Source: Endomicrobium sp.
GTDB taxonomy: Bacteria; Elusimicrobiota; Endomicrobiia; Endomicrobiales; Endomicrobiaceae
Direction of reading: 5' to 3'
Assembly (NCBI GenBank): GCA_031264325.1
Contig: JAISEE010000019.1
Span: 1-48,890, forward strand
DNA length: 48,890 nucleotides
The translations under genes were made by a program, and so were the position numbers. Positions 8,966 through 15,393 of this stretch are shown in pieces (within the stretch, counting starts at the first letter, position 1; every line of letters begins with the position of its first letter). A model generated the notes under the pieces. That model saw nothing but the letters and a program-made list of their open reading frames with translations. It did not search any database and was not told the origin of the DNA.

Positions 8966-10510
8966 TTACTTAGCTATACCTTGTGCTCTTGTTTCCCTTA
9001 TTACCGTTATTTTGATTTGTCCTGGATATTCAAGCTCTTGCTCAACTTTCTTGGCTATGTCATGAGCCAAAACTTGAGCTTGCTTGTCGTCAATCTGTTC
9101 AGGCTCAACAAGTATTCTTACCTCTCTTCCAGCTTGGACGGCATAAGCCAAAGAAACGCCTTGAAATTCTTTAACCACTTTTTCAAGCTTCTCAAGACGC
9201 TTTAAATAATGCTCTACGGATTCTCTTCTTGCTCCAGGTCTTGCAGCCGAAATTGCGTCTGCAGCAGCTATTACAAAAGCTTCAGGACTTGCAGGAACTT
9301 CAATTCCCTCATGGTGTGACAAAATAGCATTTATCATCTTTTGAGATTCACCATATTTCTTAGCTATATCCGCAGAAATCTGATGATGAGTTCCCTCAAC
9401 TTCGTGATCAACAGCTTTACCTATATCATGGAGCAACGCCGCTTTTTTGCAAAACATAACATCCAGATCAAGCTCCCCAGCTATAGCTACTGCAAGCCAT
9501 GTAACTTCTAAAGTGTGTTGAAGTTGATTCTGGCCATAAGACGTTCTATATTTTAATTTACCCAACAATTTAATTATCTCAAGATTGAGTCCCGGAACAC
9601 CTGCGTCAATAGTAGCCTGCTCACCGATTTCTTTAAGATGCTGATCCATTTCCATTTTAACTTTTGCAACGACTTCTTCAATTCTAACAGGATGTATTCT
9701 GCCATCAGTTATCAATCTTTCCAATGCAATTTTAGCTGTCTGTCTTCTTACGCCATCAAAAGCAGAAATAGTAATAGCTTCAGGAGTATCATCAACTATC
9801 AAATCCACTCCTGTAGCTTGCTCAAAAGCTCTTATATTTCTTCCTTCCCTTCCTATAACTCTTCCTTTAATTTCATCACTAGGTATTTGAACGGTTGAAG
9901 TGGTAATATCTGCTGTGTGGTCCGCAGCTATGCGCTGTATTGCAATGGAAAGAATTTCTTTTGATTTCTTATCCGCATTTTCACGAACTTCTTGTTCGAG
10001 TTTCTGAGCTAAAATAACCGCATCTTGTCTTGCTTCTTTTTCCATCTCACTTATTAATATTTTTTTGGCTTGTTCTCTTGTCATTCCTGATATGCATTCC
10101 AAAACTTTTTTTTGTTCTTCTTTTATTCTGTCAACTTCGGAAAACTTTATTGTAAGGTGATGTTCTTTATTTGAAATTTCTTTCTCCTTGCCAACTAAAT
10201 CTCTTTCTTTCCTATCTGTGGCATCCATTTTGCGCTCTAAGTTCTCTTCACGTTGGTTGATTCTATTTTCCATATTTTGGACTAACTGTTTTCTTTCTTT
10301 TATATCATGTTCAAATTCTTTTCTTTCTTTATCAATTACGACTTTCGCTTCAAGCAACGCTTCTTTTATTTTAGCTTCTGCAACCATTTTTGCTTCTTTT
10401 ATTATTCTTTCTGAGACTTGCTCTGACGATCTTGCATTTATTTTTGCATAAACTAGACGTAAAGCATATCCTGCAATTGCTGCTAAAACTCCCATAATAG
10501 TCACTTCCAT
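8966..10510 (-). CDS. rny: Ribonuclease Y
   Basis: Membrane-anchored endoribonuclease of 514 residues that starts mRNA decay. Domains in order: an N-terminal hydrophobic segment (about 1-20), a long charged coiled coil (about 25-200, rich in Glu/Lys/Arg), a KH RNA-binding domain with [12 protein letters not shown] near residue 220, and an HD phosphohydrolase domain with the metal-binding [12 protein letters not shown] near residue 355. Length matches the family (about 510-520). It overlaps the upstream fau by about 10 bases. An alternative ATG at 10495 would remove five residues and still leave the membrane segment. Confidence 0.95.
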
Positions 10511-11124
10511 CTTTTATCATTCCTCACTTTATAGTTTTGTATAACCCTTTGTTCAGTAACGATAGTTCCAATCGGCAAATCATGTTTTCCAATTGGGAGC
10601 TTATTCGTAATTTGAAAATCATAGGCAAGACCTACTGTTTTGCTTAAAGACACATCTTCTAACCATCTATCATAATAACCCTTACCATAACCAAGTCTAT
10701 AGCCCAAAAGATCAAAAGCAATGCCTGGAATCAAAATTAAATCAATAGAATTTTTTGAAACAACATTGTTTGAATTTATTTCAGGCTGTCTTATTCCACA
10801 AACTAACTGATTGACTTCTTCGGGCTTTATTATTTTTACAGCCTGCATAAACAAATCTCTAAAATTTTTTATCACAGGAACAACAACATTTTTTTTTTCT
10901 TCAATAGCTGACTCCACAATAAAATCAGTTATAACCTCAGAACCATAAGATAAGTAAATCATAAGAGTGTTCGCTTGTTCATATAGAGAAAGTTTTTTAA
11001 GTGTGGCAAAAATAGCAATACTGCAAACTAAAGCCGAAGTCGTATCAAATCTGTTTCTCATAAACAAAAACTCAGATCTCGCTCTTTTTTTTTCTAATTT
11101 TTCTAAATCCAAATAATCGCTCAC
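10501..11124 (-). CDS. fau: 5-formyltetrahydrofolate cyclo-ligase
   Basis: Converts 5-formyl-THF to 5,10-methenyl-THF using ATP. The diagnostic C-terminal region reads [20 protein letters not shown] followed by GYYDRWL, and then GLAYDFQ. The frame is open up to 11247, deep inside rarA, but the residues before VSDYLDL look like read-through. I place the start at GTG 11124: it has GAGG nine bases upstream and gives 207 residues, close to the usual 180-200. This overlaps the rarA 3' end by about 53 bases. An ATG at 11139 is an alternative. Homologues often sit beside zapA and 6S RNA (ygfA in enterics), as here. Confidence 0.9.
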
Positions 11125-12400
11125 GTATTTTATCCTCATATCCTTCTTTTGTAGGCGTATAAAGTTCCACAGGATCTGTCCAATACTCCTGCTTGACATA
11201 ATGTCCTTCAAAATCGTGTGGATATTTATAGCCTTTTCCGTGACCAAGTTCTTTTCTGTAAAGAGTTGAAGTTTTTAAATGATTCGGGACGTTTCTATCT
11301 TTGCCATTTTTAACCTCTGCCAACGCATTCTCAATTGCTAAGTAAGATGCGTTAGACTTTGGAGCACATGCGACATAAATAGCTGCCTGAGCTACAATAA
11401 TTCTAGCTTCAGGCATGCCTATAAACTCAACAGCATTAAGAGCAGAAACGGCAAGAATTAACGCTCTAGGATCCGCTATTCCTATGTCTTCAGAAGCACA
11501 AATTATTATTCTCCTAGCGATAAAACGAGGATCTTCACCAGCGGCAAGCATCTTTGCCAACCAATAAACAGTCGCGTCAGGATCTGTTCCTCTCATTGAC
11601 TTTATAAATGCTGAGATATGGTCGTAATGAGAATCTCCAGAACGATCATAAACAACAGCTTTTTTCTGCATTGATTCTTGAGCTACGTTTATATCAAAAA
11701 CCCTAACACCGTCCTTGTTTATTTTTGTTAAAAGAACCCCTATTTCAAGAGCATTAAGAAGCCTTCTTGCATCACCCCCCGAATTAGCAATAAGATATTT
11801 TTTTGCTTCCTCGGACACCATGATATTATGTTTACCAAGCCCTTTGTTTTTATCGTTTAGAGCTGACTCCATAATCGCAGACAAAGCTTTTTGTGGCAAA
11901 GAGTTAAACTCAAAAACAGTAGCTCTTGAAACAATTGCAGCATTAATATAAAAAAATGGATTTTTTGTTGTTATACCTATCAAAGTTATTATTCCTCTTT
12001 CGAGATCTGGAAGTAAAGCGTCTTGCTGAGAACGGTTAAAATGATGAATTTCATCAAGCATTAGAATAGTCTTTTTACCTGATAGTTCCAACCTAGATTT
12101 AGCTGACTCCATTATTTTTTTTATACCGGATATTCCTATAGTTACAGCATTTACCTCTTCAAAATATGATTTTGTTTTTAAAGCTATTATTCTCGCCAAT
12201 GCGCTCTTTCCACTTCCGGGAGGTCCAAAAAATATAACAGAACCAAGACTATCGGTTTCTATGGCACGACGTAACAACTTGTCGTTTCCGATAATATTGT
12301 CCTGTCCCATAAACTCTTCAAGATCGCAAGGTGACATTCTTACAGCCAACGGCTTACTTCCTTGGTTTGCAACTTCGCTAAAAAAATCTGTTTGGTTCAT
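11072..12400 (-). CDS. rarA: Replication-associated recombination protein A (RarA/MgsA AAA+ ATPase)
   Basis: AAA+ ATPase of 442 residues related to clamp-loader ATPases and eukaryotic WRNIP1, acting at stalled replication forks. The N-terminus has the clamp-interaction-like RMSPCDLEEFMGQ, Walker A FFGPPGSGKSALA near residue 60 and Walker B MLDEIHHFNRSQQD near residue 117. The C-terminus includes the RarA family motif YKYPHDFEGHYVKQEY. Length is typical. It starts after a 122-base gap that contains a candidate structured RNA, and its 3' end overlaps fau. Confidence 0.95.
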   Translation of the reverse strand: MNQTDFFSEVANQGSKPLAVRMSPCDLEEFMGQDNIIGNDKLLRRAIETDSLGSVIFFGPPGSGKSALARIIALKTKSYFEEVNAVTIGISGIKKIMESAKSRLELSGKKTILMLDEIHHFNRSQQDALLPDLERGIITLIGITTKNPFFYINAAIVSRATVFEFNSLPQKALSAIMESALNDKNKGLGKHNIMVSEEAKKYLIANSGGDARRLLNALEIGVLLTKINKDGVRVFDINVAQESMQKKAVVYDRSGDSHYDHISAFIKSMRGTDPDATVYWLAKMLAAGEDPRFIARRIIICASEDIGIADPRALILAVSALNAVEFIGMPEARIIVAQAAIYVACAPKSNASYLAIENALAEVKNGKDRNVPNHLKTSTLYRKELGHGKGYKYPHDFEGHYVKQEYWTDPVELYTPTKEGYEDKIRERLFGFRKIRKKKSEI

Positions 12401-12410
12401 AAAATAGAAA

Positions 12411-12508
12411 AATCCGCAATGTCGTTAGTCTTAACCAATTTAAAGCCTCCTTTGTCCAAGTGAAATACTAAGAATAAGTTGACTTAAAGATCACCAACAT
12501 CACAGATT
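12411..12508 (-). ncRNA. Candidate structured RNA, possibly a reduced 6S RNA (ssrS)
   Basis: In the transcript running from 12508 to 12411, the first 14 bases (AATCTGTGATGTTG) pair without interruption with the last 14 (CGACATTGCGGATT), counting four G-U pairs. A U-rich run follows at the 3' end. A long closing stem around a weakly paired interior is the 6S RNA plan, and the place between zapA and fau/rarA is a classic ssrS position. Against this, 98 bases is much shorter than the usual 160-200, and no clear central-bulge homology was seen. It could instead be a leader hairpin of rarA. Confidence 0.35.
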
Positions 12509-12522
12509 ATTATAAAAATATT

Positions 12523-12816
12523 TCAGTTCGTATAACCAGACTCGTCAAGTTGCCTAATTAGATCTCTAACTTTCTTATCATAACTATTTGAAATACTTTC
12601 TTGCAAATCTCTTAATTTAAGCAGTTCTGCTGCTATTTTCACAACAGTTAAAGTTGCTATTTTCTGCGTGTCAGGTACGTTAAAATTCTCTTTTTTTACT
12701 TCAATCCACTGTTCATTTACAAAGTTTACGACCCTGTTAAAATTTAATTCATCTAAATTGTCTATATTAAATTCTATATCTCTTCCCATTATTTTTTCAC
12801 AAGTAGTAGTAACCAT
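12523..12816 (-). CDS. zapA: Cell division protein ZapA
   Basis: A protein of 97 residues that in other bacteria binds FtsZ and bundles its protofilaments at the Z ring. The body shows the family layout: an N-terminal beta region (DIEFNIDNLDELNF), the conserved VPDTQKIATLTVVKIAAELL pattern that matches ZapA's 'd..ki.vla.l.ia.el', and a C-terminal helix for dimerisation. The ATG at 12816 follows an AAAGG. An ATG at 12789 (MGRDIEF) is also possible. It starts two bases after the ZapB-like gene, so the two are co-transcribed and probably form a division module. Confidence 0.85.
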   Translation of the reverse strand: MVTTTCEKIMGRDIEFNIDNLDELNFNRVVNFVNEQWIEVKKENFNVPDTQKIATLTVVKIAAELLKLRDLQESISNSYDKKVRDLIRQLDESGYTN

Positions 12817-12817
12817 A

Positions 12818-13048
12818 TTACGAAACCTTTACCGTATCAATCTTTTTCAATACTCTTTCTACTCTAGAGCATGCTTCTTTTGCATTTTTTTTTAATGCCA
12901 CATATTCTCTTGTAATACTCATATTACGTTCACTTTCTTTTCTCAAATATTCAACTTCCAACTTTAGTTTATGATTTTCATTTACAATTTTTTTTAAATT
13001 TTCAATTATTTTCCTAACTTTAACACCTAAAATTTCAATATTTTTCAT
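12818..13048 (-). CDS. Short coiled-coil protein, ZapB-like
   Basis: A protein of 76 residues that is almost entirely helical and charged, with heptad-like hydrophobic spacing (IENLKKIVNENHKLKLEVEY). No membrane segment or catalytic motif is visible. The first gene of a two-gene unit with zapA, it probably serves the same division ring, as ZapB does. This is inferred from size, coiled coil and neighbour. No ribosome-binding site precedes its ATG, and a near-perfect promoter ends six bases upstream, which suggests a leaderless message. Sequence identity to true ZapB is not evident, so no symbol is given. Confidence 0.6.
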   Translation of the reverse strand: MKNIEILGVKVRKIIENLKKIVNENHKLKLEVEYLRKESERNMSITREYVALKKNAKEACSRVERVLKKIDTVKVS

Positions 13049-13054
13049 ATCAAT

Positions 13055-13083
13055 ATTCTATAAATTGCTATAATGAATGTCAA
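13055..13083 (-). promoter_or_regulatory. Sigma-70-type promoter of the zapB-like/zapA operon
   Basis: On the minus strand TTGACA (13083-13078), a 17-base spacer and TAGAAT (13060-13055) form a near-consensus promoter. The start codon of the coiled-coil gene lies at 13048, only six bases beyond the -10 box. Transcription would therefore begin at or next to the A of the ATG. Confidence 0.7.
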
Positions 13084-13145
13084 TGCTATTATTTTATATT
13101 TATGAAACATTAACTTAATGTCTAAATCTTCAATTAAAACCTAAA

Positions 13146-13217
13146 AAATTTTAATATAAAAAATGAACAGATAATATGATATTGGTTTATATCTGTTCAT
13201 TTTTTATATTAAAATTT
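13146..13217 (-). terminator. Perfect 28-bp inverted repeat, bidirectional terminator
   Basis: Left arm 13146-13173 and right arm 13190-13217 are exact reverse complements over 28 bases, separated by a 16-base loop. The inner stem (ATGAACAGATA/TATCTGTTCAT) is flanked by an A-tract and a T-tract on each side, so it can terminate transcription in either direction. It starts 12 bases after the porB stop codon and ends the ferredoxin-oxidoreductase operon. Confidence 0.85.
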
Positions 13218-13228
13218 ACTAACAAAAT

Positions 13229-14164
13229 CTATATCTGGCATCCTGCTAAAGCTTTACGTTGCAAAAGCTCCCAATTATTATCAACATTTTTCTGAATAAT
13301 TTCAAGAATTAAAGCATTTTCAAGCTTAAAAAGATGTTTAAATCTGCCCTGAAGTTTTAAAAACTCAGTTACAGGTTTCTTTTCTTTAGGTATAATATTT
13401 AACTTATAAACACCATGCTCAACTTCAAAAGAAGGCCAAATGCATGTTTCAACTGCAAGTCTTGCAAGAAACATCGTATCTTCAGACTTATAGTTCCAAC
13501 CTAGTCTACATGGCGTTAAAATGTTTATAAACGACGGCCCATCTACTGATAAAGCTTTTTGTACCTTTGTTATAAAATCGTTCCAATTTCCAACATATGT
13601 TTGAGCTACATAAGGAATATTATGAGCTACCATTATCTGCGTTAAATCTTTTTTGTTTTGCTCTTTCCCTTGATGAACTTTTCCAACAGGAGCTGTGGTT
13701 GTATGTGCACCAAGAGGCGTTGCTCCAGATCTCTGTATACCAGTATTCATATACGCCTCATTATTGTAACATATATAAAGCATTCTATGCCCTCTTTCCA
13801 TAGCTCCTGATAAAGATTGCAAACCTATATCATACGTACCACCATCACCGCCAAAGGCAATAAATCTGATATCTTCCATTATTTTTCCCTGTTTCTTTAA
13901 ACTTTTATAAGCTGTTTCTATACCACTACATGTCGCCGCCGAGTTTTCAAAAGCACTATGAAAAAAAGAATTTTTCCAAGCTGTATAGGGGAAGACAGTA
14001 GTAGAAACTTCCAAGCAGCCAGTCGCACTGCTAACAACAACCGGCATATTCCCTGCAGCTATCATAGCCTGCCTAGCGACTATACCTGCTCCGCAACCTG
14101 CACAAAGACGATGTCCTCCTGTTACACGTTCCGGACTTTTACTCAAATCTTTTAAATTTGCCAT
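13229..14164 (-). CDS. porB: Pyruvate (2-oxoacid):ferredoxin oxidoreductase, beta subunit
   Basis: The thiamine-diphosphate subunit that decarboxylates 2-oxoacids. Cysteines in HRLCAGCGAG and the later TPCRLGW contribute to the proximal 4Fe-4S cluster. The TPP-binding motif is FGGDGGTYDIGLQSLSGAME, with NNEAYMNTG. The pattern of cysteines and the MNTG.QRS region fits pyruvate-type enzymes (Thermotoga PorB) rather than oxoglutarate ones. I start at ATG 14164, ten bases after GGAG. An ATG at 14191 overlapping the porA stop (TAATG) would add nine basic residues. Last gene of the operon, ended by a strong hairpin. Confidence 0.93.
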   Translation of the reverse strand: MANLKDLSKSPERVTGGHRLCAGCGAGIVARQAMIAAGNMPVVVSSATGCLEVSTTVFPYTAWKNSFFHSAFENSAATCSGIETAYKSLKKQGKIMEDIRFIAFGGDGGTYDIGLQSLSGAMERGHRMLYICYNNEAYMNTGIQRSGATPLGAHTTTAPVGKVHQGKEQNKKDLTQIMVAHNIPYVAQTYVGNWNDFITKVQKALSVDGPSFINILTPCRLGWNYKSEDTMFLARLAVETCIWPSFEVEHGVYKLNIIPKEKKPVTEFLKLQGRFKHLFKLENALILEIIQKNVDNNWELLQRKALAGCQI

Positions 14165-14190
14165 TTTATGTCGTCTCCTAAAAATTTTCA

Positions 14191-15393
14191 TTATTTTCTT
14201 ACGTTTATATATTCTACTTGACTAGTCGGTTTTTGAACCCCTGAGGCTATCTTGGCAAGAATCTCGTAAACATCAACTATGTGTTTAGTGTTAATTTCTC
14301 TTCCACCAAGCCCATAAACATAATTTACAACTTTAGGAATTGTAATGCCTGCAGCGTACAAAGAAGACACAATGTCCGCATATATAGGAGCAAAAGCTCC
14401 CGAGCAAGAATCAGCTCTATCCAACACAGCTATAGCTTTTACATGAGACAAATCTTTAACAATCTGTTTCGTTGGAAAAGGCCTGAAAACTCTTATTTTC
14501 AAAAGACCAGCTTTAATACCTTTTTCTCTTAACTCTTCTACAACAACTTTTATAGTTCCAGCTGTTGATCCGATAACTACTATTGCAATTTCAGCATCAT
14601 CAAACATAAATTTTTCATACATCTCATACTTGCGTCCAAACATTTTCTCAAAATCTTTGGCTACGTTTAAAATTATATCTTTTGAATCTCTCATAGCTTG
14701 AGCAAGTTGATATCTATGCTCAAAGTAATAGTCTTGTAAATCAACTGAACCCAAAGTGTAAGGTCTTTTAGTGTCCAATAAATATCTTTCAGGCTTATAA
14801 ATACCTACAAAGGCTTTTACATCAGCATCTGGATAAAGCTCTACCACCTCCATACAATGAGAAATAATAAACCCATCAGTCGTTACAAGTGTAGGAAGTT
14901 TTGCCTTTTCGGCAATTCTTATAGCTTGAATCATATTATCATAAGCCTCTTGAGAATTTTCTGAATAAATTTGAATCCAACCCGAATCTCTTGCACCCAT
15001 TGTGTCTGACTGATCGCCATGAATATTAAGAGGAGCAGAAATCGCTCTGTTAACTTCCGCCATAACTATAGGAAGCCTCAAACCAGAAGCAATGTAGAGC
15101 ATTTCCCACATAAGACACAATCCTTGCGAAGAAGTACCAGTCATAGCTCTAGCTCCGGCTGCAGAAGCCGCTATAGTCGCTGACATTGCAGAATGTTCGC
15201 TTTCAACAGCTATATACTCGCTTTTTACAATACCATCTGCGACAAACTGTGAAAATATCTGCACAATTTCCGTCGCAGGAGTTATAGGGTACGCTGCCAC
15301 TACATCCGGCTCTATTTGGCGCATTGCTTCCGCCATAACTTCATTGCCTGTTTTTGCAACAATCTTACCTTTTGAAAAAACTGTCTTTATCAT
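14191..15393 (-). CDS. porA: Pyruvate (2-oxoacid):ferredoxin oxidoreductase, alpha subunit
   Basis: A 400-residue alpha subunit. It has the N-terminal pyrimidine-binding region (YPITPATEIVQ), followed by the conserved AVESEHSAMSATIAASAAGA and TGTSSQGLCLMWEMLY stretches, then the transketolase C-terminal-like domain with RVFRPFP near residue 300. Length matches the four-subunit thermophile and anaerobe enzymes (about 390-400). With the other three subunits it oxidises pyruvate to acetyl-CoA and CO2 and reduces ferredoxin in the cytoplasm. This is typical of fermenting anaerobes. It directly follows the delta ferredoxin gene in the same operon. Confidence 0.94.
   Translation of the reverse strand: MIKTVFSKGKIVAKTGNEVMAEAMRQIEPDVVAAYPITPATEIVQIFSQFVADGIVKSEYIAVESEHSAMSATIAASAAGARAMTGTSSQGLCLMWEMLYIASGLRLPIVMAEVNRAISAPLNIHGDQSDTMGARDSGWIQIYSENSQEAYDNMIQAIRIAEKAKLPTLVTTDGFIISHCMEVVELYPDADVKAFVGIYKPERYLLDTKRPYTLGSVDLQDYYFEHRYQLAQAMRDSKDIILNVAKDFEKMFGRKYEMYEKFMFDDAEIAIVVIGSTAGTIKVVVEELREKGIKAGLLKIRVFRPFPTKQIVKDLSHVKAIAVLDRADSCSGAFAPIYADIVSSLYAAGITIPKVVNYVYGLGGREINTKHIVDVYEILAKIASGVQKPTSQVEYINVRK

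Follow-up and report, generated by a model that had tools for sequence, protein, structure and literature searches.

A shortened 6S-type RNA with a retained closing stem between zapA and rarA in an Endomicrobium genome

Gene neighbourhood and predicted fold

The window analysed here is a stretch of 48,890 nt from an Endomicrobium genome (contig JAISEE010000019.1), and its minus strand carries a co-directional series of genes in the order zapA (12523-12816; Pfam ZapA, 8.5e-10), a small RNA element, rarA (11072-12400; Pfam MgsA_C, 2.2e-65), fau, for 5-formyltetrahydrofolate cyclo-ligase (10501-11247; TIGR02727 above its cut-off), and an RNase Y gene. The element, which we describe as a truncated 6S (ssrS-type) RNA gene of 98 nt, runs from 12508 to 12411 inside the 122 nt that separate zapA from rarA. 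Its 3' end lies 10 nt ahead of the rarA start, and a U-rich run (UUUUUCUAUUUU; 12401-12412, read from the sequence) lies 3' of its closing stem and reaches the rarA start codon. A preliminary description of this DNA had placed a closed RNA of 98 bases with a following U-run between zapA and rarA/fau; it left the strand unstated, and both features are indeed present, on the minus strand. A candidate -10 element, TATTTT, can be read by eye at 12515-12520 and is likewise seen by eye ahead of 6S in several relatives, while a promoter scan returned 14 promoter-like sites, none of them directly before the element. Directly upstream of zapA lies an ORF of 76 aa (12818-13048, minus strand) whose match to YabA is weak and falls short of the Pfam cut-off. 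Further on, a perfect inverted repeat with 28-nt arms and 16 nt between them (13146-13217), possibly a two-way terminator, sits between a TPP-enzyme gene (13229-14191) and the zapA side.

Folded on the minus strand, the element is closed by 14 consecutive pairs, as the preliminary description had it, four of which are G.U, with a minimum free energy of -24.6 kcal/mol. In isolation it is more stable than any of 200 shuffles (z -2.77); with its flanks included the value is only z -1.34, and 17 of 200 shuffles are as stable. The plus-strand reading was rejected, its stability being no better than that of shuffles (z 0.71). Runs of 14 pairs at spans of 90-130 nt are not rare, occurring four times per strand in the window with the element included, so the stem alone would prove little; what lifts the element beyond chance is homology, since a family-specific model built without this genome matches its exact coordinates.

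The 5' and 3' arms of the closing stem, P1, occupy 12495-12508 and 12411-12424, the latter leading into the U-rich run, and all 14 pairs are kept relative to L042, one of the nearest intact relatives. By homology to the P2 helix of L042, the strands of the former P2 lie at 12475-12487 (5' strand, by analogy the would-be pRNA template side) and 12430-12442 (3' strand). What is left of the central bubble on its 3' side can be aligned at 12443-12460, with inferred boundaries. The innermost predicted helix of the element has three pairs, and thus no stable helix takes the place of the apical arm.

Descent from 6S RNA

The family-specific covariance model, R1, was built from an alignment (A1) of 30 full-length 6S sequences of the family, from which the window and the locus L065 were excluded. 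Of 49 loci considered, 36 were cut out by a sequence pattern and 13 did not fit it (L061, L065, L066, L072, L077, L080-L082, L084, L085 and L087-L089); 30 of the 36 were used, five being omitted as close to others (L044, L069, L070, L058 and L059) and one for a wrong end (L056). As a consequence of these omissions, R1 is trained on intact-looking sequences. The A1 consensus comprises 28 pairs, 12 of which have changed on both sides with pairing kept in at least one sequence.

R1 matches the window over the whole model (1-151) at exactly 12411-12508, with 59.6 bits and an E-value of 5.9e-12 on a rough calibration; the next-best place in the window scores 6.8 bits. The element is the only R1 match at E<=1 in the whole genome, which is 75% complete, and neither R1 (at E<=1 under stricter filters) nor RF00013 finds a second 6S copy there. 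The Rfam 6S model, RF00013, has no match in the window at its gathering score (46.4 bits), and relaxing the threshold to E<=10 brings up none in 12300-12700 or genome-wide; nor does any Rfam family attain its gathering score anywhere in the window. Weak matches to SNORD28 and FuFi-1 in 12300-12700, far below their gathering scores, were dismissed as identities. The covariance-model check proposed for this RNA thus gives a divided answer, negative with the Rfam model and positive with the family-specific one.

RF00013 was run against 40 genomes, the present one among them and without a match; 18 gave a match at E<=0.001, and 10 of these exceeded the curated score. Nine other members of the genus have a match, and in every one of them the match stops 3-7 nt short of rarA, which bears out the earlier suggestion of an ssrS-type neighbourhood, and the distance is larger in several genomes outside the genus. 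The seven nearest relatives carry a 6S RNA of 151-163 nt in the same zapA-rarA gap.

Set against the features that mark accepted 6S RNAs, the element has homology and synteny with them (59.6 bits with R1; the zapA-rarA gap) and a closing stem formed from its 5' and 3' ends. It lacks a score above the RF00013 gathering threshold, a central bubble bounded by P2 and an apical helix (P2 has a predicted probability of about 0 and the apical helix is deleted) and an apical arm with a -35-like region, 54 nt being missing. A length of about 160-200 nt is quoted for 6S RNA in the available text of PMC8414754; the element has 98 nt, and its intact relatives are themselves only about 150 nt long. Judged by homology and gene order, the element is a 6S RNA by descent. 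The proposal of a shrunken 6S RNA therefore holds as regards ancestry, the element lying in the same gap as, and colinear with, the 152-nt 6S of its nearest relatives.

Deletion of the apical arm and predicted loss of P2

The nearest intact relatives, L042 and L044, have a 6S of 152 nt. In the alignment with L042, the 54 nt missing from the window correspond to positions 41-94, which comprise the apical arm together with the margin of the central bubble, and the junction falls at 12468-12469, with no direct repeat visible. The deleted arm is where the -35-like region should lie. Those relatives that carry names are Endomicrobium and Endomicrobiellum genomes, with rarA identities to the window of up to 89%, which would place the window in this group. 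Members of these genera live in termite-gut flagellates. Single-cell genome and transcriptome data for Endomicrobium symbionts are reported in PMC8809381.

The deletion is accompanied by a predicted loss of P2. Although 11 of the 13 P2 pairs are formally possible in the window, their predicted probability is about 0 at 25, 30 and 37 C, as against a mean of 0.98-0.99 for P2 in L042, and the best structure with both P1 and P2 enforced reaches -16.5 kcal/mol, 8.1 kcal/mol worse than the minimum of -24.6; such predictions ignore protein binding. Restricted to the window's 98 columns, L042 is still predicted to form P2, which implies that substitutions and not the deletion broke P2 in the window.

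Substitution rates

Divergence was compared with a neutral yardstick, the 4-fold sites of rarA with base-specific rates, for pairs of our choosing (14 overall, nine by region). Seven intact pairs show 6S divergences of 0.04-0.43 of neutral. Over the 98 shared columns, the window lies at 0.52 of neutral against L042 and 0.58 against L044. L043, full length with inserts, lies at 0.51, and L084, full length and decayed, at 1.18; against L061, L065 reaches 1.02 and the genome G061 0.98, and L065 against G061 gives 0.82. If the base adjustment is left out, the window and the 4-fold sites show no significant difference (16/98 versus 40/159 substitutions; Fisher p 0.12). Since the window's 0.52-0.58 is only just above the intact range, partial constraint on the whole RNA is possible on these rates; conversely, the total rate of 0.52 of neutral is too weak to serve as proof of a loss of function, given that intact pairs reach 0.43.

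The regional counts come with the reservations that their P values are uncorrected for the several regions and pairs tested, that P2 and bubble counts are small, and that substitutions before the deletion are inseparable from later ones. Between L042 and the window, P1 has 3 substitutions where 10.9 are expected (P 0.005), the loop between P1 and P2 has 1 (3.4 expected), P2 has 6 (6.6 expected) and the central bubble has 6 (8.9 expected). All 14 P1 pairs are kept, against a neutral simulation mean of 9.3 (P 0.002), while the 11 of 13 P2 pairs kept compare with a simulated mean of 9.7 (P 0.31); in P2 one G-C pair has been replaced on both sides by A-U, and two pairs are broken. What is preserved in P1 is the pairing and not the bases specific to 6S: a U.G pair invariant in 30 of 30 intact sequences has become U-A, and an invariant C-G has become U.G. 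The substitution deficit in P1 is not significant in L084 (P 0.16), nor in L065 or G061 against L061 (P 0.21 and 0.25).

Short forms across the class and the fate of the closing stem

At E<=1, R1 matches 69 of 95 genomes of the class, the present one included. Full-model matches are 129-163 nt long, with the exception of two of 98 nt, namely the window and the genome G053 (locus L065, 2845-2942, equivalent to G053:C12:17699-17796). In a rarA protein tree of 50 rows (L090, with a broken frame, and L066 were left out, and L088 and L089, from Omnitrophota, were not entered), the window falls in a clade with L042-L046 and L084 (support 100/92), its sister relation to L084 being weak (80/71), and L065 pairs with G061 (100/99) next to L061 (96/86). 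The two 98-nt truncations, lying in separate clades, are therefore independent. The G053 form has one P1 pair changed on both sides and keeps P2 (mean predicted probability 0.88 at 37 C), folds at -33.1 kcal/mol, and on these predictions would be the better candidate for a functional mini-6S. Its sister G061, a genome that is 99% complete, retains about 53 nt (L091, 980-1033), essentially the closing stem and the U-run, which score 29.5 bits with R1 and give no match under stricter filters. No R1 match was found in 15 of 41 genomes of the genus; 14 of the 15 are below 1 Mb and 14 of the 15 below 90% complete, so that some absences may be assembly gaps.

Three further loci in the comparison set are recorded here in their own right. 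In G031, a 3.1-Mb genome of another family, a stem-closed RNA of 79 nt with a 6S-like closing stem lies upstream of rarA (L038, reverse complement 1293-1371), with no R1 or RF00013 match. In G037, a 6S-like RNA of about 106-114 nt lies upstream of rarA (L040, 1319-1424); it scores 35.1 bits with RF00013, below the cut-off, has no R1 match and is not listed by cmscan. Finally, G017 carries a rarA-like stretch with 12 in-frame stops (G017:C5:1166-2479) beside a full-length 6S match.

Ten cases in which the RNA is short, decayed or lost were compared: six retain P1 pairing (the window, L084, L061, L065, L072 and G061), and in four it is broken or gone (L077, where it is broken, and G001, G013 and G002, which have no R1 match and where it is gone). 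L043 and L084 retain the full set of 14 pairs, and L065, G061 and L061 retain 13 of the 14 each; the R1 alignment shows one broken pair in L072. To reach 14 pairs, L084 requires a 2-nt bulge; two of its pairs are broken in the R1 alignment, and P1 is absent from its minimum-energy fold. The preliminary description had named loss of the stem in close relatives as evidence against the RNA; the nearest clade shows no such loss, the broken or missing stems being those of more distant genus members (L077, G001, G013 and G002).

A second use of the stem is weakly suggested by the spacing of the genes. In the nearest intact relatives (L042), the interval from the zapA stop to the start of 6S is only about 14 nt, which leaves no room for another terminator, and the 3' end of 6S may therefore also end zapA transcripts. 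A terminator scan of 11900-13300 in the window called none; set beside a terminator's GC-rich stem, short loop and U-run, the element has a stem and a U-rich run, with 70 nt inside the stem. Among four relatives without P1, the scan called a terminator in the gap only in G001, of six pairs; G013 has a weaker 5-pair hairpin that was not called, and G006 and G002 have neither terminator nor hairpin in the gap.

Discussion

Taken together, the data lead us to lean, with some reserve, towards a 6S RNA in decay that has held on to its closing stem, perhaps in the role of a terminator-like hairpin; decay with P1 kept for another reason is favoured because the apical arm is lost, P2 is lost by prediction and P1 is kept. 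The element is the 6S orthologue of a genome-reduced Endomicrobium or Endomicrobiellum in which the apical arm was deleted (54 nt in the present alignment) and in which substitutions, before or after that deletion, are predicted to have broken P2 next to the central bubble. The canonical 6S role, that of an open-promoter mimic holding sigma70-type RNA polymerase, would then probably be lost, and with it the binding of the polymerase. Selection appears to hold the closing stem and the U-rich run, and for the presumed transcript the likeliest remaining role would be to act between zapA and rarA as a hairpin of the terminator or transcript-end kind. The element is best regarded as a natural truncation of a known RNA family, the shrunken-6S proposal being correct about ancestry and questionable about function. 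The working, very short 6S RNA implied by the preliminary description fares poorly, P2 being lost in the predicted ensemble and evolving at about the neutral rate.

That the element could nonetheless be a functional natural minimal 6S RNA, in which stem and bubble suffice for weak binding of RNA polymerase although the -35-like arm is missing, is a possibility by analogy, which we consider doubtful. The available text of PMC8876501 describes engineered B. subtilis RNAs without the -35 region, 6S78 and 6S82cp, which bind sigmaA-RNAP, template pRNA and are released, with 50% binding at about 1 uM, the full-length RNA having a Kd of about 100 nM, so that the affinity of the engineered RNAs is roughly tenfold lower. 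The G053 form, with its high predicted P2 probability and stable fold, and the window's overall rate of about half of neutral point the same way. Against this stand the absence of P2 from the window's predicted ensemble and its 6 substitutions against a neutral 6.6, the 3-pair innermost helix that leaves the apical arm without a stable replacement, the loss of nearly everything but P1 in G061, the sister of G053, and the rate of L065, at 1.02 of neutral against L061. A working mini-6S fits G053 better than the window, and the broader proposal that a natural 98-nt minimal 6S evolved at least twice in Endomicrobium symbionts, regulating RNA polymerase without the -35-mimicking arm, with G053 as the better and the window as the weaker candidate, is in our judgement unlikely. 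A plain pseudogene, with P1 kept by chance or for want of time and nothing under selection, would account for the nearly neutral rate of P2 and the bubble, for the full-length decayed L084 at 1.18 of neutral and for the loss or breakage of P1 in 4 of 10 cases; it is made improbable by the deficit of P1 substitutions (P 0.005) and the retention of P1 pairs (P 0.002) in the window, and by similar pair retention against L061 in L065 (P 0.026) and G061 (P 0.031), with the qualification that part of the P1 constraint may predate the deletion.

The two remaining explanations would remove the truncation or the ancestry altogether. An assembly that dropped the apical hairpin from an organism with a full-length 6S is conceivable for a single genome of 34 contigs that is 75% complete, but the junction shows no direct repeat, 16 substitutions and a broken P2 accompany the deletion, and other genomes carry an independent 98-nt form and a nearly stem-only form, so we hold such an artefact to be very improbable. 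The position of the element, ending so shortly before the rarA start, would also suit an unrelated structured rarA leader of the attenuator or riboswitch-like kind, but colinearity with the 6S of the relatives, the R1 E-value of 5.9e-12 and the lack of any Rfam family at its gathering score in the window leave a leader not derived from 6S strongly disfavoured.

6S RNA is a small RNA that holds back transcription in bacteria, and the available text of PMC8414754 describes it as occurring in nearly all of them. According to that of PMC8876501, the apical arm of the E. coli RNA holds the -35-like region and the 3' side of its bubble the -10-like one, pRNA synthesis unwinds the P2 region (the downstream helix), and complexes with RNA polymerase can form without the terminal stem, equivalent to P1. 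Among the papers searched, none joined 6S RNA with zapA and rarA or with Endomicrobi, none joined 6S RNA, covariance model and Elusimicrobi, and none was matched under shortest or minimal 6S RNA. The indispensable parts of 6S have been studied mainly with mutants and engineered truncations. The genus offers a natural series, from intact RNAs of about 151 nt through decayed ones, 98-nt forms without the apical arm in two lineages and a nearly stem-only form of about 53 nt to genomes with no detectable 6S. This series suggests that the half that binds RNA polymerase can erode first and that the stem, not needed for binding in E. coli, outlasts it for a time, possibly through a second task of ending the zapA transcript. 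The Rfam 6S model misses such remnants, and the element shows how a widespread regulatory RNA can erode stepwise.

Among known systems, the closest is 6S RNA itself (ssrS; RF00013), with which the element shares descent, the zapA - 6S - rarA - fau neighbourhood, P1, the 3' U-rich run and remnants of P2 and the central bubble, and from which it differs in having 98 instead of about 151 nt, no apical arm, no predicted P2 and no Rfam match. The 98-nt 6S of G053/L065 has the same length, the same missing part and a kept P1, but it stems from an independent event on the rarA tree and has a well-kept P2 and an asymmetric bubble. As far as the available text of PMC8876501 describes them, B. subtilis 6S78 and 6S82cp, at 78 and 82 nt, are similar in size and likewise without the -35-like apical region, but they are engineered and retain a helix on either side of the bubble; of the corresponding pair, the window RNA keeps only P1 and not P2. 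With intrinsic terminator hairpins, finally, the element shares a stem followed by a U-rich run between co-directional genes, and it differs from them in the 70 nt enclosed by its stem and in being uncalled by the terminator scan.
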